Source of the DNA: a virus
DNA: 29,977 bases
Virus record (IMG/VR): IMGVR_UViG_3300049912_000031
Coordinates: 1-29,977 of that record
Strand: one strand, 5' to 3'
Shown here: positions 4,307-25,749 of the stretch, piece after piece
Layout of the letters: the number at the start of each line of letters is the position of its first letter
Numbering within the stretch: position 1 is the first letter of the stretch
Translations under genes and position numbers: made by a program
Notes under the pieces: generated by a model
What the model was told of the DNA's origin: nothing
The model's input: only the letters and a program-made list of their open reading frames with translations
The model's database searches: none

Positions 4307-5623
4307 ATGAGTTTAGCAAGATTTCAATTACCTTATGTGACGACTGTTCAGCGAATGGCAGTCATACCAAAAGACAGGGATGTTCTTTTCGATACTGATG
4401 AAAGGACTATCTATATTGGCAATGGGATAACTTATGGCGGTGTTGCCCTTGCCACGATTGACATATCAGGCAAGGTAGATAAGATAACAGGTTATTCACT
4501 TGTTGCCAATATAGAAATAGCAAAGATACACACTCCGGGAAGTGATAATCAGGATTTATCTGATTTACAGCCAAAGGAATCAGGCAAGGGACTTTCAACA
4601 AATGATTATACAGATGCTGAAGAAACTAAACTGGCAGGAATTGAGACAGGGGCAAATAATTATACCCACCCTGCAAATCATTCTCCTTCAATAATAACTC
4701 AAAATTCGACTAATCGTTTTGTTTCCGATACGGAGAAATCTACGTGGAATGGCAAACAGGATTCACTTGGATTTACTCCTGTTGCCAATGATGATTACCG
4801 TCTTGCTGATGCCCGCCCTGCAAATGATGTTTATTCATGGGCAAAAAATGCTTATAAACCCTCTTATACGCCTTCTGAAGTAGGAGCTGAACCGGCAAAT
4901 ATAAATATTCAGAATCATGTAACTGCCACTCATGCTCCGAGTAATGCAGTCCCATTGGCAACGGTCAAGGCTGATTCTGAGATATCAGATGCAATAGATA
5001 AAACACATAGCAATATTTTAGATCATTCAAATAGCCAGGACCATTCACATACAAACAAGACTCAACTTGATTTAGTGACAGATGGGGATCATGATATTTC
5101 TGCTCATGCTGCAATCGTTAATTGGCAGTCCGTTTACAGAACAATATTAGATTCAACAGGCAGTCATATTGCTGCAAAAGTAGCAGGGACATACGGGATA
5201 CCTCAAGGTCAACCACTTGCAGTTTCAGGAACAGGGACTCTTTATGCTCTGAATACAATTTATATTGATTCGGCTGACTATCCGACCATTGACGGCAAGG
5301 CAGCAAAATTAAGAGTACGTTGTAATATTGCCTGTAATGATGTGGCTCCTTTTACAGGAACCTTTGTCGTGGGGCTTCATCCTGTCACCCGTCCAGGAAC
5401 ATCAGGAGGAGCGGGAGTTTGTATTTATACAATAGGATCAGCAGTTACAGGATCAACAGTCACGGGGACTAATCTTGCAGCAGACTCACAAAATAATTTG
5501 GTGGGTTCGGATTTCGCATTGCCTGCAAATGGATTTTACGTTTTGGCGGTAGTTACTTCGGCAACTATGGCGACAAGTTCACATTGTCATGTTTCGGCAA
5601 GTTTACAGATAAGAAATGCCTAA
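4307..5623 (+). CDS. Fibre protein (head or tail fibre)
   Basis: A 438-residue fibrous virion protein. Residues 1-45 (RDVLFDTDERTIYIGNG) match the small N-terminal domain often found at the base of phage fibres, in which an R/P, DTD and IGDG-like pattern recurs. The middle is a repetitive, Asn/Thr/Ala/His-rich shaft with typical fibre phrases (LSTNDYTDAEETKLAGIE, TNRFVSDTEKSTWNGK). Residues from about 270 form a compact beta-rich tip candidate. The gene lies between portal and minor head genes, not with the tail genes, so a capsid (head) fibre is plausible. The three glycosyltransferases that follow may act on it. It overlaps the first of them by 8 nt. Confidence 0.75.
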   Translation: MSLARFQLPYVTTVQRMAVIPKDRDVLFDTDERTIYIGNGITYGGVALATIDISGKVDKITGYSLVANIEIAKIHTPGSDNQDLSDLQPKESGKGLSTNDYTDAEETKLAGIETGANNYTHPANHSPSIITQNSTNRFVSDTEKSTWNGKQDSLGFTPVANDDYRLADARPANDVYSWAKNAYKPSYTPSEVGAEPANINIQNHVTATHAPSNAVPLATVKADSEISDAIDKTHSNILDHSNSQDHSHTNKTQLDLVTDGDHDISAHAAIVNWQSVYRTILDSTGSHIAAKVAGTYGIPQGQPLAVSGTGTLYALNTIYIDSADYPTIDGKAAKLRVRCNIACNDVAPFTGTFVVGLHPVTRPGTSGGAGVCIYTIGSAVTGSTVTGTNLAADSQNNLVGSDFALPANGFYVLAVVTSATMATSSHCHVSASLQIRNA

Positions 5624-6236
5624 ATATTCAGTTGTCATACCATCTTTATTGGCTGATTACAGAACAGCAGCCAAAGATCGCGATAAGAAGATCATCCGGG
5701 CTGTGAATTCTGTATTATTACAGACTTACCAGGACTTTGAAGTGATCATCATAGCTGATGGATGCCAGAAGACTGTTGAAGTGATGAAGCAGGTCATGGA
5801 TCCGAGAATCAGCACTATTCTTATTACAAGAAATAAATTATGGTCAGGCGAACCTCGCAATGCAGGGATACAAAACGCAACAGGGGAGTTTATCATATAT
5901 CTTGATATTGATGATCTTTATGGAGAGAATCATTTACAGATTGTTGCAGATCAGTTAAATAGTTACGACTGGGTATGGTTCGATGATATACGTTATTCGC
6001 CGAGACAGAAACAATGGTATGTCAATCCCTGTGAGATAACGCAGATTTCCAGACATGGGACTTCGAATATATGTCATAAAAGATTATTACCCGTCAAGTG
6101 GGATCATTCAGGATATGCACATGATTTTTATTTTGTCAGGCAACTGAGAGATAATAAGAATTATACGAAGATATATAATACCGAGTATTATGTCATGCAT
6201 GTACCTAATGCCAATACAGGAGGGTATGATTTATGA
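5616..6236 (+). CDS. Glycosyltransferase, family 2 type (first of three)
   Basis: A 206-residue GT-A-fold glycosyltransferase that would transfer a sugar from a nucleotide-sugar donor. The N-terminus has the typical strand (YSVVIPSLL), then NSVLLQTYQDFEVIIIADG. These are followed by GEPRNAGIQNATGEFIIYLDIDD, where D97-x-D99 is the metal-binding DxD motif. Residues after 150 should form the acceptor side. It is short but carries the complete catalytic half. It overlaps the fibre gene by 8 nt and the next transferase by 4 nt (ATGA), so the three transferases form one translational unit with the fibre. Substrate and acceptor cannot be read from sequence. Confidence 0.88.
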   Translation: MPKYSVVIPSLLADYRTAAKDRDKKIIRAVNSVLLQTYQDFEVIIIADGCQKTVEVMKQVMDPRISTILITRNKLWSGEPRNAGIQNATGEFIIYLDIDDLYGENHLQIVADQLNSYDWVWFDDIRYSPRQKQWYVNPCEITQISRHGTSNICHKRLLPVKWDHSGYAHDFYFVRQLRDNKNYTKIYNTEYYVMHVPNANTGGYDL

Positions 6237-6850
6237 AAGTTGCCGCCGTTACGATAACTTACAATCGGCTGGATTTAACTAAAAAGACAGTTGAAAGTTT
6301 TTACGATAAGACTTCAGTTGATTATCATCTCTTTATTGACAATGGTTCTACTGACGGCACACGGGAATATCTTAAAGATTTCAATCATATCTTACTGGAT
6401 AAGAATTTCGGCATTGCCTATGCTTTTCGTGATGCGGTAAACAGGTTAAAAGAATACGATTATATCCTTAAACTTGATAATGATGTAGAGACAGTAACGC
6501 CGGATATAATAAACAGGATGCTGGAGTTTTATGAAAAGAATGGTCAGAATTATGTTTGTTCTCCTGTCGATCTTAATCTTGATCCTAAATTTGCACCTGC
6601 TATATTATTCAAAGGCAGCCTCAATGGATTCAATATAAATCTTACCACGCATACAGGCGGAGCTTTCCAGCTGGCTCCGGCGAGTATATGCAAGAGATTA
6701 TGTCTGGAATTCAGGCATCTTAAATTTGGTGATTATATGATAGGCAAGTATTATCGCCGTCATGCTTATCGTCCTGTTTATCTCATGGATTTAGAGATGA
6801 AACATATAGGTATTAACTATTCGACACCTCATGCAGAATATGTCTTATGA
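6233..6850 (+). CDS. Glycosyltransferase, family 2 type (second of three)
   Basis: A 205-residue GT2-like enzyme. It shows the classic opening VAAVTITYNRLDLTKKTVESF, the nucleotide-binding DNGSTDGT motif at residues 36-43, and the LDND (residues 81-84) DxD equivalent. A TGGAFQLAP segment near residue 140 is in the usual acceptor-loop position. It is the most canonical of the three transferases. It is coupled to the first by ATGA overlap and overlaps the third by about 20 nt. The tight packing and distinct sequences suggest sequential action on one glycan, which is inference. Confidence 0.9.
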   Translation: MKVAAVTITYNRLDLTKKTVESFYDKTSVDYHLFIDNGSTDGTREYLKDFNHILLDKNFGIAYAFRDAVNRLKEYDYILKLDNDVETVTPDIINRMLEFYEKNGQNYVCSPVDLNLDPKFAPAILFKGSLNGFNINLTTHTGGAFQLAPASICKRLCLEFRHLKFGDYMIGKYYRRHAYRPVYLMDLEMKHIGINYSTPHAEYVL

Positions 6851-7508
6851 TCTTATTATAGTATCACAAAGCACTCCTGCGCTTATTCCTGTCACCCAGC
6901 GATGTATTGACTCGGCAAGGGAAGATATGGCAGAACTTAATATTGTTGTCATAGAGACAGGACAACCATATAAATATAATGTTGATAAAATAATAGAATA
7001 TAACGGCGAATTCAATTATAACCGTGCTTTGAATATGGGATTAAAATATGCGAAGAACGAAATCCATATATTAGCTAATAATGATCTTGTCTTTCATCCG
7101 GGATGGTCAAAGATAGGTGATCTGATGAAAGCAAATGGTTATCATTCCGCTTCATGTGCGACAGGCGATATTAAACAGGGTGAATGTCTGTATGAAGGTT
7201 ATTCAATAGAGACTATACTTGCAGGATGGTGTATATTTATAGATGATTATTGTCTTGAAAAGATAGGTCAGCTTGATGAAACGATGTCATTCTGGTTCTC
7301 GGATAATCTTTATGCCTGCCAGATAAAAGCCGCAGGGATAAAACATGCTTTATTTTGTAATTGCCGGGTAGATCATTTAGTAAGCCAGACATTACGTAAA
7401 CAACCGTCACGGATAAGAAGACAATACCAGATAGGAGAATTTCGTAAGTTTAATGAAAGATTAAGATATTATGCCCAAAGAGAAATCACTGACAAAAGTT
7501 ATTCCTAA
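6831..7508 (+). CDS. Glycosyltransferase, family 2-like (third of three)
   Basis: A 225-residue GT-A-like protein. The N-terminal strand is YDLIIVSQSTP, followed by FNYNRALNMGLKYAKNEIHILANNDLVFHPGW, in which NND (residues 83-85) replaces the DxD motif in a pattern common among GT2 relatives. A later LAGWCIFIDDYCLEKIGQLDE segment matches the acceptor and catalytic region of rhamnosyl-type GT2 enzymes. A second ATG at 6840 would give 222 residues and a shorter overlap with the preceding gene, and may be the real start. The 3' end overlaps the next small gene by 38 nt. Family is clear, donor and acceptor unknown. Confidence 0.82.
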   Translation: MQNMSYDLIIVSQSTPALIPVTQRCIDSAREDMAELNIVVIETGQPYKYNVDKIIEYNGEFNYNRALNMGLKYAKNEIHILANNDLVFHPGWSKIGDLMKANGYHSASCATGDIKQGECLYEGYSIETILAGWCIFIDDYCLEKIGQLDETMSFWFSDNLYACQIKAAGIKHALFCNCRVDHLVSQTLRKQPSRIRRQYQIGEFRKFNERLRYYAQREITDKSYS

Positions 7509-8761: not shown

Positions 8762-9169
8762 ATGGAAGAACTGACAGAGAAGAAAATTGATATGATGATC
8801 AATGGACAGAAAGTTAGTGTGAGTGAAAAGGTACTTAAAAGCAGAATGATGAGAGATAAAAAAGTAGAGGTAGAGATAAACGGCAAGCGCATCCGCTGTC
8901 CGGAGCACATGTTAGAAGATATAATGAAGTTTGGCGGATCATTGACCCGAAGGATAGTCAAAAACCCCCCAAAAGAAGTTCTTCTGATGACAGAACCTAA
9001 AACGATAATCCTCCCGAAAGTTGAAAAAGTAATAATCCCATCCGGGACTGAAATCAAAGAAATACCTTCTGTAGGCGAAAAAGAGATTGTAAAATCAGAA
9101 TATCCCGGCGACAAACCTATAGTCAAGAAAACCGTTAAAAAGGGAGTTAAGAAAACTACGAAGAAATGA
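8762..9169 (+). CDS. Small basic protein with duplicated ING motif and Lys-rich tail
   Basis: A 135-residue protein of unknown function at the start of the scaffold-capsid group. Residues 13-30 and 39-56 are a diverged tandem repeat with period 26. Each begins ING-K/Q-K/R-V/I and carries E then L at matching positions (E22/E48, L25/L51). The middle (about 70-115) is Pro/Ile/Val-rich and extended. The C-terminus is a run of KK-V/T-KK-like elements, giving a very basic tail like that of histone H1 or some encapsidated DNA-binding proteins. By position it may be an internal head or DNA-binding protein, but that is inference. It overlaps the next gene by 4 nt. Confidence 0.68.
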   Translation: MEELTEKKIDMMINGQKVSVSEKVLKSRMMRDKKVEVEINGKRIRCPEHMLEDIMKFGGSLTRRIVKNPPKEVLLMTEPKTIILPKVEKVIIPSGTEIKEIPSVGEKEIVKSEYPGDKPIVKKTVKKGVKKTTKK

Positions 9170-9351
9170 TGTATGAGATAAAATCGAAGAAGACGGGTCA
9201 TACCGAGATATTATCTGAAGAGGAGTTTGATAAGTTTTCAAAACATTATATATTCAGCAGGTTTAGTGTCAAGAAACTTGATCTGAAACCACTGATACCA
9301 TCATTAAAAAAAGAGATCATAAAAGAAAAAACGAAAATAAAAAAAGAATGA
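9166..9351 (+). CDS. Small basic protein upstream of scaffold
   Basis: A 61-residue protein starting MMYEIKSKKTGHTEILSEEEF. The second ATG at 9169 is an equally good start. The N-terminal half resembles a short beta-hairpin plus helix, as seen in small hypothetical phage proteins with a KSKKTGxxEILSEEEF-type opening. The C-terminal third is Lys-rich. It is joined by ATGA overlaps on both sides (9166-9169 and 9348-9351), so it belongs to the scaffold-capsid operon. Function is unknown. Confidence 0.65.
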   Translation: MMYEIKSKKTGHTEILSEEEFDKFSKHYIFSRFSVKKLDLKPLIPSLKKEIIKEKTKIKKE

Positions 9352-10223
9352 AGGCTGAAGAGCAGACTAAATTAAACGAGACATTATCCAAAGTCTTTAA
9401 ACTGGATACGGAGCAGTTGGCCACACTCTATAACGAGGCCGGAGATTTAACAGACTTGACAGTTGTAACGGAGGCAGACACTAAAAGAGTTGCTAAGTTC
9501 AACACCGAGAAAACCTCTCAATATAATCGAGGCATAAAAGAAGGTGCGGGGAAAATTGAGAAGGATCTCAAAGAAAAGTATGAAATTGAATCTGATCTTA
9601 TCGGAGTAGAGTTAGTAGATCAAATCGTTCTTAAACAGACTGAAGCGGTTACTAAGGCCAATCCAAAGGATGTCACCAAGCATCCCGATTATATAAAGTT
9701 AGAGACTACTATAGCCAAACAACTTAAAGACCGGGATAAAGAATGGGAAGGCAAAATGGCATTGAAGGAAGCGGAGTTTAAAAAAGAAAAACTCTTTGAG
9801 AAGATCAGGGATAAAGCTCTGGTCAATCTTGAAAGTCGCAAACCGATACTGCCAGGCGATCCTGCGAAGGCTAAAGTATGGAAAGATACTTATCTTAATG
9901 AGTTAAAGGCTGGTAATTACCAGGAGGGGGAAGACGGTGTTCCAATTGTCCTGGATAAAGAGGGCAATACACTGAAAGACAAACACGGAAACCCTGTCAC
10001 CTTTGATGAATACGAGAAGAGTATCTCGGATAAATATTTTGAATATCCGGTTTCTGATAAAAGAGATTCCCCTGGGAATAAAGATTCTAAAGACAAAGTG
10101 AATCTTCCCGGAGATCCAAAGACCGAAGAAGAATGTTTAATTAAGTTAAGAGATCCTAAAATCACTCCAGAAGATCGCAAGAAATGGACAGATTTAATGG
10201 ATAACTTAAAAAGACAAAAATGA
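9348..10223 (+). CDS. Scaffold (prohead assembly) protein candidate
   Basis: A 291-residue, highly charged, Lys/Glu/Asp-rich and mostly helical protein directly before the major capsid gene. Coiled-coil-like stretches occur around residues 60-85 and 115-165, and a Pro/Asp-rich flexible region around 170-260 precedes a helical C-terminus (PEDRKKWTDLMDNLKRQK). Composition, size and position fit a scaffolding protein that guides capsid assembly and is removed on maturation. No Ser-His-Asp protease or ClpP-like signature is visible here or nearby, so any scaffold removal may not rely on a protease encoded in this window. It overlaps the capsid start by 4 nt, which favours matched expression. Confidence 0.7.
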   Translation: MKAEEQTKLNETLSKVFKLDTEQLATLYNEAGDLTDLTVVTEADTKRVAKFNTEKTSQYNRGIKEGAGKIEKDLKEKYEIESDLIGVELVDQIVLKQTEAVTKANPKDVTKHPDYIKLETTIAKQLKDRDKEWEGKMALKEAEFKKEKLFEKIRDKALVNLESRKPILPGDPAKAKVWKDTYLNELKAGNYQEGEDGVPIVLDKEGNTLKDKHGNPVTFDEYEKSISDKYFEYPVSDKRDSPGNKDSKDKVNLPGDPKTEEECLIKLRDPKITPEDRKKWTDLMDNLKRQK

Positions 10224-14326: not shown

Positions 14327-14594
14327 GTTAGTTATCATATCGGTTGTTTTTGTCAATCTCTGCGAACCAGGGATGATCTTCTCATGGTATGGGAAACAGA
14401 TTAATAAACTGCCTGACTGGCTTTATAACCCTCTTGGCGGATGTGTGAAATGTTTCGCCGGACAGGTTTCTTTCTGGGGATACCTGGTTGTTTATTTTCA
14501 TCCTTATAATTTATTTGAACACATAGTATTTACCTCATCGTCTATTTTTCTCTCACTAATACTTAATAAGATATGGACACTCTCAGATCAGTAG
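14307..14594 (+). CDS. Small membrane protein with GGCxxC motif
   Basis: A 95-residue protein with two or three predicted membrane segments: about residues 3-18 (LLFKLVIISVVFVNLC), 50-64 (AGQVSFWGYLVVYFH) and 72-88. The GGCVKCF motif at about residues 44-50 lies just before the second segment. The pattern CxxC next to a W-containing membrane helix recalls DUF1360-like small membrane proteins. It overlaps genes on both sides by about 20 nt, in different frames, so it is embedded in the operon. Function is unknown; superinfection exclusion or another host-interaction role is possible but not shown. Confidence 0.65.
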   Translation: MIALLFKLVIISVVFVNLCEPGMIFSWYGKQINKLPDWLYNPLGGCVKCFAGQVSFWGYLVVYFHPYNLFEHIVFTSSSIFLSLILNKIWTLSDQ

Positions 14595-15064
14595 ATTTAA
14601 GCAAAAAATTTTTTGAATGCGGAGGACGTAAATTTTATGTCAGAGATTCGCTTTCATTTTCAAGGTATAAGGAACTTCAGAAGATAAACCTGGAGTTTGG
14701 TTATTCGGCGACGTTTCATGATATTTTCAAACATATAAAAGAAGCATGGGATTATCTCAATGCTATTAAGTTAGGCGAGGCGGCTGTGATACTTCATAAT
14801 ATAATGTATGGCGTGGTCAGCCTGGAAGATAAAGATGATCCGGCATTACGAATGTGTGCTTTATTTATTGATGAGGAGGGTGAAGATCCAACAATCTACG
14901 ATGAGGGTAAGATGAGAGAGAAGATTGAATGTTGGGGAAAGGAGTTGGACACCCTCCCTTTTTTTCAACTGGCATCCAACTTAGTTCCAAACTGGATGCC
15001 GGTTTACAATCTCGTTTTAAAAGATGGTTTGCCAAAGGCGGAGAAAGAAGAACTAAGTATATAA
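14573..15064 (+). CDS. Tail assembly chaperone, short form (gpG analogue)
   Basis: A 163-residue protein immediately upstream of the tape measure module, starting MDTLRSVDLSKKFFECGGRKFYVRDSLSFSRYKEL. The GGRxFYVRDSLS opening and mostly helical remainder fit the tail assembly chaperones of Bacteroidota phages as I know them. These proteins bind the tape measure protein and recruit tail tube subunits. Termination at 15062-15064 yields this short form. Ribosomes that slip at 14956-14965 produce the longer form. It overlaps the upstream membrane gene by 22 nt. Confidence 0.8.
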   Translation: MDTLRSVDLSKKFFECGGRKFYVRDSLSFSRYKELQKINLEFGYSATFHDIFKHIKEAWDYLNAIKLGEAAVILHNIMYGVVSLEDKDDPALRMCALFIDEEGEDPTIYDEGKMREKIECWGKELDTLPFFQLASNLVPNWMPVYNLVLKDGLPKAEKEELSI

Positions 15065-15213
15065 AAAAAGAGGTTGAGGCATTAGATAAAGATTGGAATG
15101 ATTTAATTTATTCTTTATGTGAGGGCAATGCTACTGAGATGATCGCTTTAAAGAAGTTCGATATATTTGATTTTTTTGATTATATAGAAAATAAGAGCAA
15201 GAAAGATGGCTAA
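14573..15213 (+). CDS. Tail assembly chaperone, -1 frameshift fusion (gpG-T analogue)
   Basis: The long form is read as 14573-14962 joined to 14962-15213, giving 213 residues. The zero-frame ribosome meets C-CCT-TTT-TTT at 14956-14965, slips back one base and continues in the frame that encodes FSTGIQLSSKLDAG and then a charged helical C-terminus ending NKSKKDG. The -1 frame is open from before the slip site to 15213 and is not a gene on its own: no good start lies close upstream. The C-terminal extension is expected to bind the tape measure protein. The G/GT pair is one of the most conserved features of long-tailed phages, and its position here is exactly the standard one. Confidence 0.82.
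14956..15003 (+). promoter_or_regulatory. Programmed -1 ribosomal frameshift site with downstream hairpin
   Basis: Two overlapping heptamers fit X-XXY-YYZ in the zero frame: CCCTTTT (14956-14962) and TTTTTTT (14959-14965). The codons are CCT 14957-14959, TTT 14960-14962, TTT 14963-14965. A stem of 11 pairs follows, 14968-14978 with 14993-15003 (one G-U pair), closing a 14-nt loop. The spacer is 5 nt from the first heptamer and 2 nt from the second. Slippage gives the chaperone fusion. Confidence 0.85.
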
Positions 15214-20883: not shown

Positions 20884-21453
20884 ATGTCAGTTTATGTTTT
20901 GCCCGATTGTCCAACAGACTGTACGGGAGTTTTAGAATCAGTGAGTTTCAATGAATGTGCACCGGAGGTGCATTTCGGAGAAATAGCGAGGTTGTATCTG
21001 TGGGTTGATTCAGCCACTCCGCCATTTCCAAGCAATGTTGGTTACTGGTCAGGGGTAGAATGGTCGAACCATCTTCATCCATCGGGAACGGCTGTCGATG
21101 ATATCCGTGAATTTACCGTCATAGGCGAGATGCCTGAACCGGAACAGACAGAGACTCCAATATCGGGAGACCGTACAGTCATAGGTTATAAAAAATTCAC
21201 TCTCAACCTGGAAATTGATGAGACTAACGATGTAAACTATAACTTTCTTCTGGCCTCGGAATGTAATGGCAAGTATAAATGTAACTTTGAGACTGCCGAC
21301 GGTATTCTTTATGGCGGGTATGAGGGTTTGGATGTATCAGTCAAGATGAACCAGGTTATACCAAAGAGCCGACAGGAGGTTGTTAAGATCATGGTTAAAG
21401 TGTCATGGTCGAGTAAGAACCATCCTTTCAGATGCGTTTCACCTGTAGCATAA
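20884..21453 (+). CDS. Major tail tube protein candidate
   Basis: A 189-residue beta-rich protein starting MSVYVLPDCPTDC. The size, a probable two-sheet barrel organisation (VIGEMPEPEQTETPISGDRTVIGYKKFTLNLEIDE followed by YNFLLASECNGKYKCNFETADGILYGG) and its own leader with an intergenic gap fit a highly expressed tail tube protein. No other tube candidate is present between the connector genes and the tape measure, where it would normally be. Nine cysteines are present, including a DCPTDC cluster at residues 8-13 and C135/C140. Alternatively it is a baseplate protein. It shares its leader layout and first codons with the gene at 11301. Confidence 0.5.
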   Translation: MSVYVLPDCPTDCTGVLESVSFNECAPEVHFGEIARLYLWVDSATPPFPSNVGYWSGVEWSNHLHPSGTAVDDIREFTVIGEMPEPEQTETPISGDRTVIGYKKFTLNLEIDETNDVNYNFLLASECNGKYKCNFETADGILYGGYEGLDVSVKMNQVIPKSRQEVVKIMVKVSWSSKNHPFRCVSPVA

Positions 21454-21459
21454 AAAGAT

Positions 21460-22254
21460 ATGGCAACAGATTATACGACAGGATGCGGAGGTCTGGCACT
21501 GAGTTTTATTCAGATGCTGGCTGCCTGCATAGAAGGGTATCATGATATTGCCGGTGTAATGCATTATAGAATAAATACACTGCTTTCTTCTGATACCTGT
21601 GATGAATTAAGTGATTTCCTCGGTTGTAATATATCACATATCGAACCGGAAAGACAACTTGTCGAAAATACATTTGTCCTTGATGACTGTAACCTGCTCG
21701 CATGGAAGATGTTTAATAATACTTCCGAGTGGACAGATTATAAAGAATGCGGGGAAATACCACAGACACTAATACAGATGCTCGCACGATGTATCGTTGA
21801 ATATAGTGACCATGATAGGATAAATATAATTATTGACGCAAATGTATGTACTGAGATAACGCCTCTTCTGGATTGCAATACAAACGCCATTGAATCTGAA
21901 AGACTAATGGTAACTAATCTCTTTGCTGTTGATGATTGCGACCGGTTACTGTTGAAAATATTCTCCAATACCAGTACAATGACCGATTACAATACTCAAT
22001 GTACAGAAGCCCCGGAATCATTTTATGAGTTACTTGCCAGGTGTATTGTACTTTATAACGGTCATTATTATCTTAATGTCGCAGGGGTGACGGGTGTTTG
22101 TGATGATCTTCATGCATTCTGGACCTGTTCCAATAATCACATAGATCCTGAAAGGGCATTGGTAGAGAATGTTTTTTGTACTGATTCTTGTGGTAATCTG
22201 GCACTTAAATTATTTGGCCAGAGTCAATTTAGTTGGAGAGGAGGCGACCAATGA
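21460..22254 (+). CDS. Triple-repeat five-cysteine protein, virion candidate
   Basis: A 264-residue protein built almost entirely from three repeats of 84-88 residues, at about 9-94, 97-177 and 181-254. Each repeat has five cysteines at matching places: C9/C97/C181, C23/C111/C195, C47/C130/C214, C56/C139/C223 and C77/C160/C244. The spacing is 14, 19-24, 9 and 21 residues. Each also shares LA-x-CI, an I-x-x-ER motif 8 residues after the fourth Cys, and LVxNxF or its equivalent before the fifth. C240 is the only extra cysteine. The regularity suggests a small disulfide- or metal-stabilised helical domain, repeated three times. It follows the tail-tube candidate and overlaps the next gene by 4 nt. 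I do not recognise the family. Confidence 0.78.
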   Translation: MATDYTTGCGGLALSFIQMLAACIEGYHDIAGVMHYRINTLLSSDTCDELSDFLGCNISHIEPERQLVENTFVLDDCNLLAWKMFNNTSEWTDYKECGEIPQTLIQMLARCIVEYSDHDRINIIIDANVCTEITPLLDCNTNAIESERLMVTNLFAVDDCDRLLLKIFSNTSTMTDYNTQCTEAPESFYELLARCIVLYNGHYYLNVAGVTGVCDDLHAFWTCSNNHIDPERALVENVFCTDSCGNLALKLFGQSQFSWRGGDQ

Positions 22255-22649
22255 GCGATGTAAAAAATACCGGGTTTAAGAAGATGGAATGTACAGACAT
22301 CCATCATCAGAATAAAATGATACAATCTGATGTCGGAGCAGGGTTTGTCGATGTCCAGGTCGTAGGTACTGATGTAAATATCTCAGGTCCCAAGACGGGG
22401 GCGAGTATTACGGTTCTCACGGGTGATTATTCTCCGGGCGTGGATGCTGACGGCAATGCCTGTACTAATCCTGACGGGACTTTTCTGATTTGTATAGAGA
22501 CGGCAGGTATATTTTTCGTCACTCTATTCGACGGGTCAGATTTTTTGATCACTACGGTACAGTCAACGGCATACCTGGGGCAATGGTATCCGGCAAAAAT
22601 TATCTCCGTCAATGTAGGGACTACAGGTGATTTCTCTGTAGGGTATTAA
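22251..22649 (+). CDS. Small tail/baseplate protein, beta-rich
   Basis: A 132-residue protein starting MSDVKNTGFKKMECTDIHHQNKM. I chose the ATG at 22251, which overlaps the preceding stop (ATGA) and has GAGGAGG at 22238-22244, 6 nt upstream. The in-frame TTG at 22233 is less likely. The N-terminal IHHQNKMIQSDVGAGF motif is followed by beta-rich sequence with an ETAGIFFVTLFDGSDF segment. It lies in a run of small to medium beta-rich proteins leading to the tailspike and is probably a structural part of the tail tip. No known domain is recognised. Confidence 0.65.
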   Translation: MSDVKNTGFKKMECTDIHHQNKMIQSDVGAGFVDVQVVGTDVNISGPKTGASITVLTGDYSPGVDADGNACTNPDGTFLICIETAGIFFVTLFDGSDFLITTVQSTAYLGQWYPAKIISVNVGTTGDFSVGY

Positions 22650-22676: not shown

Positions 22677-23018
22677 ATGGGATACTATAATGTAGAAGCA
22701 GATGTAGTTGATTTGATTTTTACCCAATGTGATACTATAGATATGTCATTTTCTGTCTATTTAAATGATGTTCTTTATGATATGACAGGGATGCAACTTG
22801 ATATGCAGGTAAGAAAAACGAATGGTGATTTAGTAAGGTCATTCACGAGTTCCGGGGGTACACCAGCAATAACTATTGCGACAACTACATTTAATATCTA
22901 TTCTACCGGGTTTACGAGAGCATTTACATATAATTATGATGTACAGCTAACCGACGGGGCAGATATTATGACAATTATGAAAGGCAGAGTTATTGTAAAA
23001 AAAGAAAGAACTTTATGA
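22677..23018 (+). CDS. BppU N-terminal-like baseplate protein
   Basis: A 113-residue protein with an Ig-like pattern resembling the N-terminal domain of upper baseplate proteins (BppU_N type). DTIDMSFSVYLNDVLYDMTGMQLDMQVRKTNGDLVRSF is followed by strands around TFNIYSTGFTRAFTYNYDVQLTDGADIMTIMKGRVIVKKE. This follows the pattern of a polar N-strand, a DLTG-like turn, an IRxxxG strand, and a final GxVxV strand. Such domains attach receptor-binding modules to the baseplate. Here it stands alone, directly before the lectin-like and spike genes (4-nt overlap), suggesting an adaptor role. Confidence 0.7.
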   Translation: MGYYNVEADVVDLIFTQCDTIDMSFSVYLNDVLYDMTGMQLDMQVRKTNGDLVRSFTSSGGTPAITIATTTFNIYSTGFTRAFTYNYDVQLTDGADIMTIMKGRVIVKKERTL

Positions 23019-23821
23019 GCATAAGAATAGGAATAGGAATAAAGCCATCATCGGTATCGGGTTATTCGTGGGATGCCTCAGCTACTGCTTTATTAAATAG
23101 AATGATTGCTGCCGGGGAAACGCAAACTGATGCAAGGGCAAGAAATATAAATGATACTATCATTGCATTAAAGGCAGCAAATCTATTTGATACTCGTTTT
23201 GACGGGATGGGCATTACAAGGGCAACGGGACTTGGTTCAAGTAAATTAAACTGGGTTCAGAATGCTTTTAATCTTACAAAAGGCGGTGCAGGTACTTTAA
23301 CATTTACAACTGATGGAGGTTATAATAGTGATGGTTCAACAACATATCTTAAAACTAATTTCATTCCAAGTGTTAATGGATCAAAGTTTAAACAGAATGA
23401 CGCTTCTTTTTGGTTTTTAATTAGTGGTTCGCTTGGTTCGGGTGTTATGGGCCACGGTGTTGATGATGGCGGAGCTCGTAAGATTGTAATTGGGGCAATA
23501 ATAGGTTCAAATGATTTGAATAAGTTAAATAGTGCTACTTCAAGCGGAGTAGGTGCAAGATATGCTATTGGTTATAATTGTATGGCAAGAACAAATGCAA
23601 CAACTCAGGATAAATATATTAATGCGAATGCTTATAATAATGCAGCTAATTCAACTGGATTACCTGTTAGTGAAATATATTTATTAGCATACAATGATGC
23701 TGGTACGCCGAGTTATTTTGTTCCTGAGAGATTAGAGGCATGGGGTTACGGAGCTTATATAACACAGGCGGAATTTCTTACTATTCAGGGAATTGTTAAT
23801 GCTTATATAGCAGCATTATGA
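23015..23821 (+). CDS. Tail tip protein with lectin-like (LamG-type) domain
   Basis: A 268-residue Gly/Ser/Asn-rich protein. After a short N-terminal segment (SIRIGIGIKPSSVSGY) and a helix rich in Ala, the region from about residue 60 to 260 has the beta-sandwich rhythm of concanavalin-like/LamG domains (LNWVQNAFNLTKG, STTYLKTNFIPS, DASFWFLISGSLG, PERLEAWGYGAYIT). The C-terminal ITQAEFLTIQGIVNAYIAAL helix is typical of LamG-type phage proteins, to my knowledge. It would bind host glycans during adsorption. Overlaps of 4 nt on each side tie it to the baseplate adaptor and the spike, forming an adsorption cassette. Confidence 0.6.
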   Translation: MSIRIGIGIKPSSVSGYSWDASATALLNRMIAAGETQTDARARNINDTIIALKAANLFDTRFDGMGITRATGLGSSKLNWVQNAFNLTKGGAGTLTFTTDGGYNSDGSTTYLKTNFIPSVNGSKFKQNDASFWFLISGSLGSGVMGHGVDDGGARKIVIGAIIGSNDLNKLNSATSSGVGARYAIGYNCMARTNATTQDKYINANAYNNAANSTGLPVSEIYLLAYNDAGTPSYFVPERLEAWGYGAYITQAEFLTIQGIVNAYIAAL

Positions 23822-25749
23822 AATTTTCCGTAACACAAATATTGCCCAAGAAATTCAGTTGCACTCAACTGTCTATTCCGTTGCCCGGACAACTTTCTCT
23901 GGATGTTGTTCAGTGTCTCACGGGTGACTGGTATAAAAGTGGATCGAAATATTATTTTCGTGACCATTCCGGCAACGGTTATGATGCAGAGATTTTAGGA
24001 TTTGATGCTGAAGAACTAACTGGAGTGGGTTTTTCTTATAATTCAAATGCAAAAATAAAACAACCATCGTCTGGTTCTGCGTTCACCGCATTACAGGCAG
24101 CAGACTTTAATAATTTTTGGTATATATCCGGAGTACCGAGGGAAATTCCTTATTGTTTATTGTTTCAAGATATCCATTATCATCATCAAATTTTCAGCCG
24201 TCATTATACCGGAACATATACAAACGGTTATGTAAAAGATATCTGCACCTACGACCATGTATTAACCGGAAATCAGTTATCTGCGGCAAAATCATTTTTC
24301 GGAGTGCCGACAGAATTGGTTGCAACGGCATTATGGGTCGACAATGCTGGAAATGATACAACCGGAACAGGAACAAAGGCATTGCCTTTTAAAACAATCC
24401 AACACGCCGTAACGGTTGCCAATCCAGGCGATACAATTTATCTTGGTTACGTATATGATAAAGTTGATCTTACGGCAAAATTATTGCATATTCAAGGTAC
24501 GGGATATTCTGAAATAAATGGGACTCAGTTAGGGGCAGGAGCCTTTACATTAAAATCTTCTTTAAATTCAACTTTTAAAAATCTTGTAATTTCCAATTTC
24601 GATCAGACAGGGAATAACGGAGTTATTAGCATAACCGGAGGCAGTCCAAAATTCTATCTTTGTAATCTTGGAATTGCAACTATACGTTATCATCCACATC
24701 AAGATTGTACTCATGCAATGGATATTTCCGGAGCATCATTAGTTGAATGGTATGGTGGCAATATTAATTACTTGCCTAATCTTGCAAGTTATCTGATCGT
24801 AAATGATACATCTGATTTTAAATTTATTGGTGGTTATGTTCGTGGCTGCTTTAAATTCAATAATGCTTCAACAGGAAATATTAATATTGATATATATGGT
24901 GGTTCTGCCTCATTTCAATCTCATTTTTATAATACGAGCATAGTTACATTTAATGTAAGAACAGATACTATCATCCGAGATTTATTATTTAATGAATTAT
25001 TAGGATATTTAACATCGGGATGGAGATTATATGATACTGCAATTTTAAATCTTAAATATCAAAAACGTGCATTTGCTGTCAATTTAATCTCAGGCACACC
25101 TGTGTTAAATCTATCTCAAAGTATTGCTACTATTTATCCATATATAAATGCCGGGGCAGGTGTTGCAGCAGGAGCGATAGTAAATATTAATTACTGCCAA
25201 TTAACACTTGATGTGAATAATGATATATCCGGTGTTCATAATTTAGAGGATTTTGCCGGTATAAATTGGAACATAAAACATTCAACAATAGAATTTTCCG
25301 GTCATTCAGGTTTGTTTAAAACAATGGGGCAACCTATTGGATTGACAAATGGCGTTGATCCTGTCTTGCTTATTGAAGACAGTATAATTATAGATCATTG
25401 CGATGATGGCGTTCCGTTTGGTTTGAATTACCCGGTTTGTGTTGCCAATAAGGGAAAAACAACTATAAGAAGGTCGAAACTTATAAATATGGATTATGAT
25501 GGTATAAGTGCAAATAAATTACTGGTAATAACAAAAGATGCCGGGCATTTTCTGAATGTTGTTCTTGAAGATGTAGAATTTATTAGTGATGTTACACCCG
25601 GAGGAAATTTATTCCAAGTAATCAAATCAGTTCCATTGACCATTAATGATTATGTAGATATAATTGGAACTTTCATAAATCACACGCAAGAATATGATCC
25701 TTGTGATGTTATGGCAGATTGGAATTATCTTTTAGCAAATGCACCTTAA
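23818..25749 (+). CDS. Tailspike with right-handed beta-helix domain
   Basis: A 643-residue receptor-binding or depolymerase-type protein. Residues 1-165 form an N-terminal attachment and lectin-like region (GDWYKSGSKYYFRDHSGNG, then YVKDICTYDHVLTGNQLSAAKSFFG). Residues 173-200 carry WVDNAGNDTTGTGTKALPFKTIQHAV and then NPGDTIYLG, the standard opening of pectate-lyase-like parallel beta-helices. Irregular short strands continue to about residue 600. Catalytic residues cannot be assigned, but beta-helix spikes often degrade capsular polysaccharide. The last residues include HTQEYDPCDVMADWNYLL, a possible terminal helix. It ends the tail module. Confidence 0.8.
   Translation: MKFSVTQILPKKFSCTQLSIPLPGQLSLDVVQCLTGDWYKSGSKYYFRDHSGNGYDAEILGFDAEELTGVGFSYNSNAKIKQPSSGSAFTALQAADFNNFWYISGVPREIPYCLLFQDIHYHHQIFSRHYTGTYTNGYVKDICTYDHVLTGNQLSAAKSFFGVPTELVATALWVDNAGNDTTGTGTKALPFKTIQHAVTVANPGDTIYLGYVYDKVDLTAKLLHIQGTGYSEINGTQLGAGAFTLKSSLNSTFKNLVISNFDQTGNNGVISITGGSPKFYLCNLGIATIRYHPHQDCTHAMDISGASLVEWYGGNINYLPNLASYLIVNDTSDFKFIGGYVRGCFKFNNASTGNINIDIYGGSASFQSHFYNTSIVTFNVRTDTIIRDLLFNELLGYLTSGWRLYDTAILNLKYQKRAFAVNLISGTPVLNLSQSIATIYPYINAGAGVAAGAIVNINYCQLTLDVNNDISGVHNLEDFAGINWNIKHSTIEFSGHSGLFKTMGQPIGLTNGVDPVLLIEDSIIIDHCDDGVPFGLNYPVCVANKGKTTIRRSKLINMDYDGISANKLLVITKDAGHFLNVVLEDVEFISDVTPGGNLFQVIKSVPLTINDYVDIIGTFINHTQEYDPCDVMADWNYLLANAP

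Follow-up and report, generated by a model that had tools for sequence, protein, structure and literature searches.

A triplicated cysteine domain encoded beside a tail-tube candidate in a phage fragment, and its single-unit relatives

The virion of Agrobacterium phage Milano is networked by disulfides, and its structural proteins contain 2.1–2.4% cysteine (PMC10491603, PMC10811340). The bonds described are largely inter-subunit and lie within known folds, namely those of the tube, sheath, collar, capsid and baseplate (PMC10491603, PMC10811340). Milano, whose virion stability is provided via disulfides, and its relatives 7-7-1 and OLIVR4 have cysteine-enriched structural proteins, and some but not all structural candidates are likewise cysteine-rich in the DNA analyzed here, the 29,977-base IMG/VR record IMGVR_UViG_3300049912_000031 (referred to below as the window). 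Seven structural candidates in the window (the 10220, 11301, 13449, 17832, 20884, 21460 and 22257 genes) exceed a Milano-like level of ~2%, with a cysteine content of 2.1–6.1%. Values of 3.3% for the MCP candidate, 2.8% for the 11301 gene, 3.9% for the 13449 gene and 3.2% for the tail-tube candidate were obtained, and the 264-residue protein described here, at 6.1%, ranked top among the virion-type genes compared. Low values were found for the portal (1.2%), the 7733 gene (0.6%), the 9348 gene (0.3%) and the tape measure (0%). In contrast to Milano, the cysteine signature in the sequence of the 264-residue protein is intra-domain and lies in a small, uncatalogued domain of a different phage group.

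The protein also resembles the small stand-alone accessory proteins of tail and adsorption whose genes lie between those for the tail tip and the fibres. With these it shares size, adsorption-module position and, in one relative (L035), modular fusion to a fibre-like protein. Unlike those proteins, it is without a PHROG, Pfam, NCBIfam, PDB or BFVD match and is internally triplicated.

The triple-unit gene and its repeats

The window is a phage fragment in which terminase and portal genes were recognized by profile match, while tape-measure-like and tail-type genes were assigned by size, order and weaker matches. The tape-measure candidate is followed by two tail-tip-like genes, a 189-residue tail-tube candidate with six cysteines (20884..21453, + strand) and the triple-unit gene (21460..22254, + strand), an open reading frame with an ATG start that encodes 264 residues including 16 cysteines. 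The identity of the tube candidate is inferred, and a PDB sequence search with its profile returned no match. Downstream on the same strand lie a small beta-type gene of ~110–130 codons (22257..22649), kept just 3′ of the domain gene in most relatives; a small gene preceding the fibre/spike genes (22677..23018) that matched phrog_1084, of unknown function, at E 1.5e-8; and the fibre/spike genes. Among the last, a 643-residue spike-like protein (23818..25749, + strand) in an adsorption-module context matched phrog_4577 (tail protein, 3.7e-5), phrog_16653 (hydrolase, 3.7e-7) and DUF1565 (1e-3). Additionally, two overlapping frames just 5′ of the tape measure (14573–15213) are arranged like the genes of a tail assembly chaperone with a programmed frameshift.

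The 264-residue protein is made up of three homologous units, 88, 84 and 84 residues long, as given by C1-to-C1 spacings of 88 and then 84 and by the 84 residues from the third C1 to the end. Unit 1 spans residues 9–96 (21484..21747, + strand; Cys 9, 23, 47, 56 and 77), unit 2 residues 97–180 (21748..21999, +; Cys 97, 111, 130, 139 and 160) and unit 3 residues 181–264 (22000..22251, +; Cys 181, 195, 214, 223 and 244, plus the off-grid Cys 240). Unit 3 was modelled alone (pLDDT 81). The first-pass annotation had placed 15 of the 16 cysteines on a repeating grid, and this was borne out: the columns C9/97/181, C23/111/195, C47/130/214, C56/139/223 and C77/160/244 are cysteine in all three units, with C240 the odd one, whereas random placement of 16 cysteines put at most six in such columns in 20,000 trials. 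The spacing within a unit is C1-x13-C2-x18/23-C3-x8-C4-x20-C5.

Twenty-one columns are invariant across the three aligned units, five of them cysteine, and unit pairs score 25–34 SD above shuffled sequences. Between units, amino-acid identity is 35–47% and nucleotide identity 44–57%, with third positions changed most; this indicates an old repeat kept by selection on the protein. The purifying selection proposed initially agrees with a dN/dS of ~0.15 against the orthologues in L002 and L003, a ratio obtained with saturated dS. Two motifs described at first pass held only in part. All three window units have the ER motif, but its arginine is not retained in single-unit relatives, and LxxN is only approximate (unit 2 reads MVTN), the strict form in the window being V-x-N.

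Relatives of the domain and their gene order

Queried on its own, the window protein gave no hits among viral contigs or phage records, and the unit profile and neighboring genes were needed as probes to reach relatives. The unit profile recovered two triple-unit orthologues in IMG/VR phages (L002 and L003). Probing with the upstream neighbor (20884–21453) recovered L013, L014, L016, L025 (a Bacteroidetes MAG contig), L032–L038 and L039–L041, among which L034 is a near-copy of L033 and L036 of L032. The single-unit homologues that the first-pass annotation had suggested looking for were found at nine loci (L013, L014, L016, L025, L032, L033, L035, L037 and L038), each with a gene of 80–114 codons directly 3′ of the tube candidate. 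An HMM built only from the triple units recognized nine out of ten single-unit proteins, with E values of 1e-20 to 1e-5; the second copy in L035 gave the 1e-5 match and the other eight fell between 1e-20 and 1e-7. The outlier, L038, was recovered by a leave-one-out profile at E 2e-6. In total, 19 units were collected from 12 distinct phages or loci.

In all 12 (the window, L002, L003 and the nine single-unit loci), the domain gene occupies the same place between the tube candidate, which always lies immediately 5′, and the fibre genes, so that the position beside tail-tube candidate and spike genes remarked on at first pass is now seen as synteny. Four tube-candidate relatives of flavobacterial type (L026, from a Winogradskyella MAG, and L039–L041) lack the domain gene, which indicates that this gene is not essential for the tails of the wider group.

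In the unit tree, all nine units from the triple proteins fall into a single clade (96/95) in which first, second and third units each group across phages, and in the tree of the upstream neighbor the three triple-bearing phages likewise form a clade (100/100). The simplest history suggested by these trees is a single triplication in the common ancestor of the window phage, L002 and L003. The ancient origin claimed earlier for the triplication is upheld by the single-unit orthologues and the trees. When the unit profile was run against two samples of Bacteroidota genomes (396 and 393, with the center genome G001 in both), only G001 matched, which is the MAG that brought in L025; no origin from a bacterial host gene is therefore visible in these samples, and the family appears to be phage-restricted.

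The failure to recognize a family at first pass was repeated in the library searches. Neither the window protein nor its relatives gave a credible match in Pfam, PHROGs or NCBIfam, and a PDB sequence search with the cysteine domain was empty. An NCBIfam match to RdgC was dismissed as chance (20 bits against a cut-off of 489). The members share a unit of ~75–95 residues with invariant C1 and C4, paired C3 and C5, a second hairpin of VD-x-C-G type and a gene adjoining the tube candidate. Judged by these sequence features, the cysteine domain is a proposed new family that none of the searched libraries describes, rather than a new kind of system.

Placement in the tail module and possible roles

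The reading that we favor, at somewhat better than even confidence, is that the 264-residue protein is a tail-associated structural protein, accessory or adaptor, from a siphovirus-like phage with Bacteroidota-type hosts, and comprises three tandem disulfide-stabilized domains. It draws on the repeats and their conservation, on synteny, on the change from single to triple units, on covarying cysteines and on the fusion in L035, and is favored further by the fold model, by the other cysteine-rich virion-type genes of the window and by the Milano precedent; from these we infer the virion location, disulfide bonding and topology, a docking role and occupancy by three units. The domain would most likely dock between the tail (tube or tip) and the receptor-binding proteins encoded next door. 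Triplication would provide three docking units per chain, one polypeptide filling the positions of separate single-domain copies.

The gene that follows the domain gene in L038 is homologous to the window 13449 gene (30% identity, E 1e-32), which in the window sits between the head genes and the tape measure, a place that suggests a tail-terminator-type protein. Its occurrence beside the tube candidate and the domain in L038 is in keeping with a tail role.

The fusion concerns one phage only. L035 carries its second copy of the domain at the N-terminus of a 305-residue protein, the C-terminal part of which is related to that of a 275-residue, signal-peptide-bearing protein with a VGIGTTTP start from a Bacteroidota genome. 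The fibre-like character of the 305-residue protein is a reading of its motifs rather than a database match. Together with the C-terminal extension that follows the domain in L038 and the 1298-residue fibre encoded by the next gene in L013, this fusion would suit a pure fibre adaptor, in which the receptor-binding protein is split and the domain protein forms its N-terminal docking part, binding only the next fibre product. Most copies, however, stand alone and usually adjoin the gene of another small protein, and we regard this narrower role as possible but doubtful.

It is unlikely that the domain belongs to a non-virion late protein, such as a tail assembly factor or a lysis or host-modifying protein, lying in the tail operon by chance. 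No relative is known from virion proteomics, the domain is missing beside four tube-candidate relatives, and small accessory genes do occur in late operons, as exemplified in L014 by a gene (8852–9385) between the single-unit gene and its usual neighbor that weakly matches Imm5-like immunity proteins, under the cut-off. Against this stand the constant place beside the tube candidate in 12 of 12 phages or loci, the L035 copy joined to a fibre-like C-terminal part, a cysteine-rich make-up common to virion proteins and the lack of an apparent signal peptide in the cysteine-domain protein.

Bacterial signal peptides are unusual on virion proteins, which assemble in the cytoplasm. Signal-peptide-like starts were observed on fibre-like or adjacent adsorption-module proteins in L013 (9051–12947), L035 (8660–9533), L041 (7698–9314), L026 (9962–11041), L038 (7927–9864) and L047 (766–3245). 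A gene in the fibre position of L016 (7887–9425) carries a glycosyl hydrolase family 16 domain and possibly encodes a polysaccharide depolymerase. Caspase-domain (Peptidase_C14) genes were found near the tail/lysis end of two phage loci, L025 (6178–6993) and L032 (9755–10543).

Predicted fold and cysteine pairing

The AlphaFold2 model of the full chain had a pLDDT of 52, with only unit 3 confident, and was too poor for the arrangement of units, so that a fold search with it was meaningless. The three-fold related symmetry raised as a possibility at first pass found no support in this model, in which one unit only was resolved. The single unit, modelled from 19 alignment rows, reached a pLDDT of 81 and a pTM of 0.63. 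It is predicted to contain a helix (13–19), strands 21–24, 27–30 and 32–37, a cysteine loop, a second helix (55–63) and strands 64–66 and 72–79, giving a predicted helix-hairpin / loop / helix-hairpin fold. An internal two-fold repeat of the helix-hairpin, suggested by the model, was unsupported by profile comparison. No Foldseek match to the single-unit model reached E ≤ 0.001 (best 3.4 in the PDB and 0.26 in BFVD), a search limited in power by the small domain and the pTM of 0.63.

C1 and C4 are invariant in all 19 units. Eighteen units have both C3 and C5, and L037 has lost the two together; C2 is optional (12 of 19) and has no co-varying partner. Seven units (L014, L016, the first copy in L035, L037, L025, L032 and L033) have an extra pair of cysteines, the first close to where the second strand ends or directly following C3, the second where the last strand ends; the other 12 units lack both. 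The independent covariation events are few, namely one co-loss and about two co-gains. The five-cysteine repeat described at first pass is therefore correct for the window, but the core of the family consists of C1, C3, C4 and C5, and a plain five-cysteine definition was dropped on account of the C2-less units and of L037. Homologues lacking repeat cysteines, which were to count against the domain as first described, were found for C2 and, in L037, for C3 and C5, and not for C1 or C4.

This pattern predicts disulfides C1–C4 and C3–C5, an optional third disulfide and a free C2; disulfides are preferred to a metal site because cysteines are lost and gained in pairs. An account in which the cysteines simply sit buried in the core, with neither disulfide nor metal, would suit the compact predicted fold and the reducing cytoplasm, but paired gain and loss is unexpected of independent core residues and makes this account distinctly improbable. 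Least probable of all is that the four core cysteines of each unit hold zinc or another metal: four near-invariant cysteines would suit a tetrahedral Cys4 site in a virus assembled in a reducing cytoplasm, but the paired CxxC-type ligands and four conserved cysteines of a zinc-binding Cys4 site were not found, no CxxC knuckle is made by core cysteines in any of the 19 units (which speaks against a zinc ribbon), L037 loses exactly C3 and C5 and keeps the other two of its four core cysteines, C1 and C4, the additional cysteines appear and disappear as a pair, and no zinc-binding family was matched. Of the unusual disulfide or metal chemistry envisaged in the first-pass annotation, the disulfide part is favored by the co-varying cysteines and the metal part is unsupported.

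For the tail-associated, disulfide-stabilized protein preferred here, the two intradomain disulfides would probably arise after lysis. They would tie the loop that carries cysteines and lies between both halves of the unit to the end of the first helix and the turn of the second hairpin, leaving C2, where kept, as a free or intermolecular thiol. The domain is probably a new, modest kind of tail part with sulfur bridges. A bolder reading, which we hold only tentatively, is that it represents a phage-only fold and a disulfide-stapled block of Bacteroidota-phage tails that went from one to three copies in a single lineage, in which covalent tail cross-linking is tuned through the optional third pair and the free C2; this would be a second, independent disulfide-laced tail beside that of Milano. 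As a putative family of tail-module domains that occurs naturally in both single- and triple-domain form, it is testable and offers a convenient case for tandem fusion replacing separate subunits in phages and for the use of disulfides in tails other than those of Agrobacterium phages. For a group of Bacteroidota phages with poor annotation, it also serves as an aid to assigning genes.

Sugar-related genes were also observed. Three consecutive family-2 glycosyltransferase genes (5616–7508, the third under the Pfam cut-off) lie between the portal and capsid genes of the window, and similar genes occupy the same place in a related phage (L049, 5069–7201), hinting at glycosylation of the virion or the host surface. 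The phage carrying the L002 triple-unit orthologue contains a large sugar-gene cassette (L048, 7928–16794) with genes that appear by eye epimerase-, kinase-, isomerase- and nucleotidyltransferase-like.
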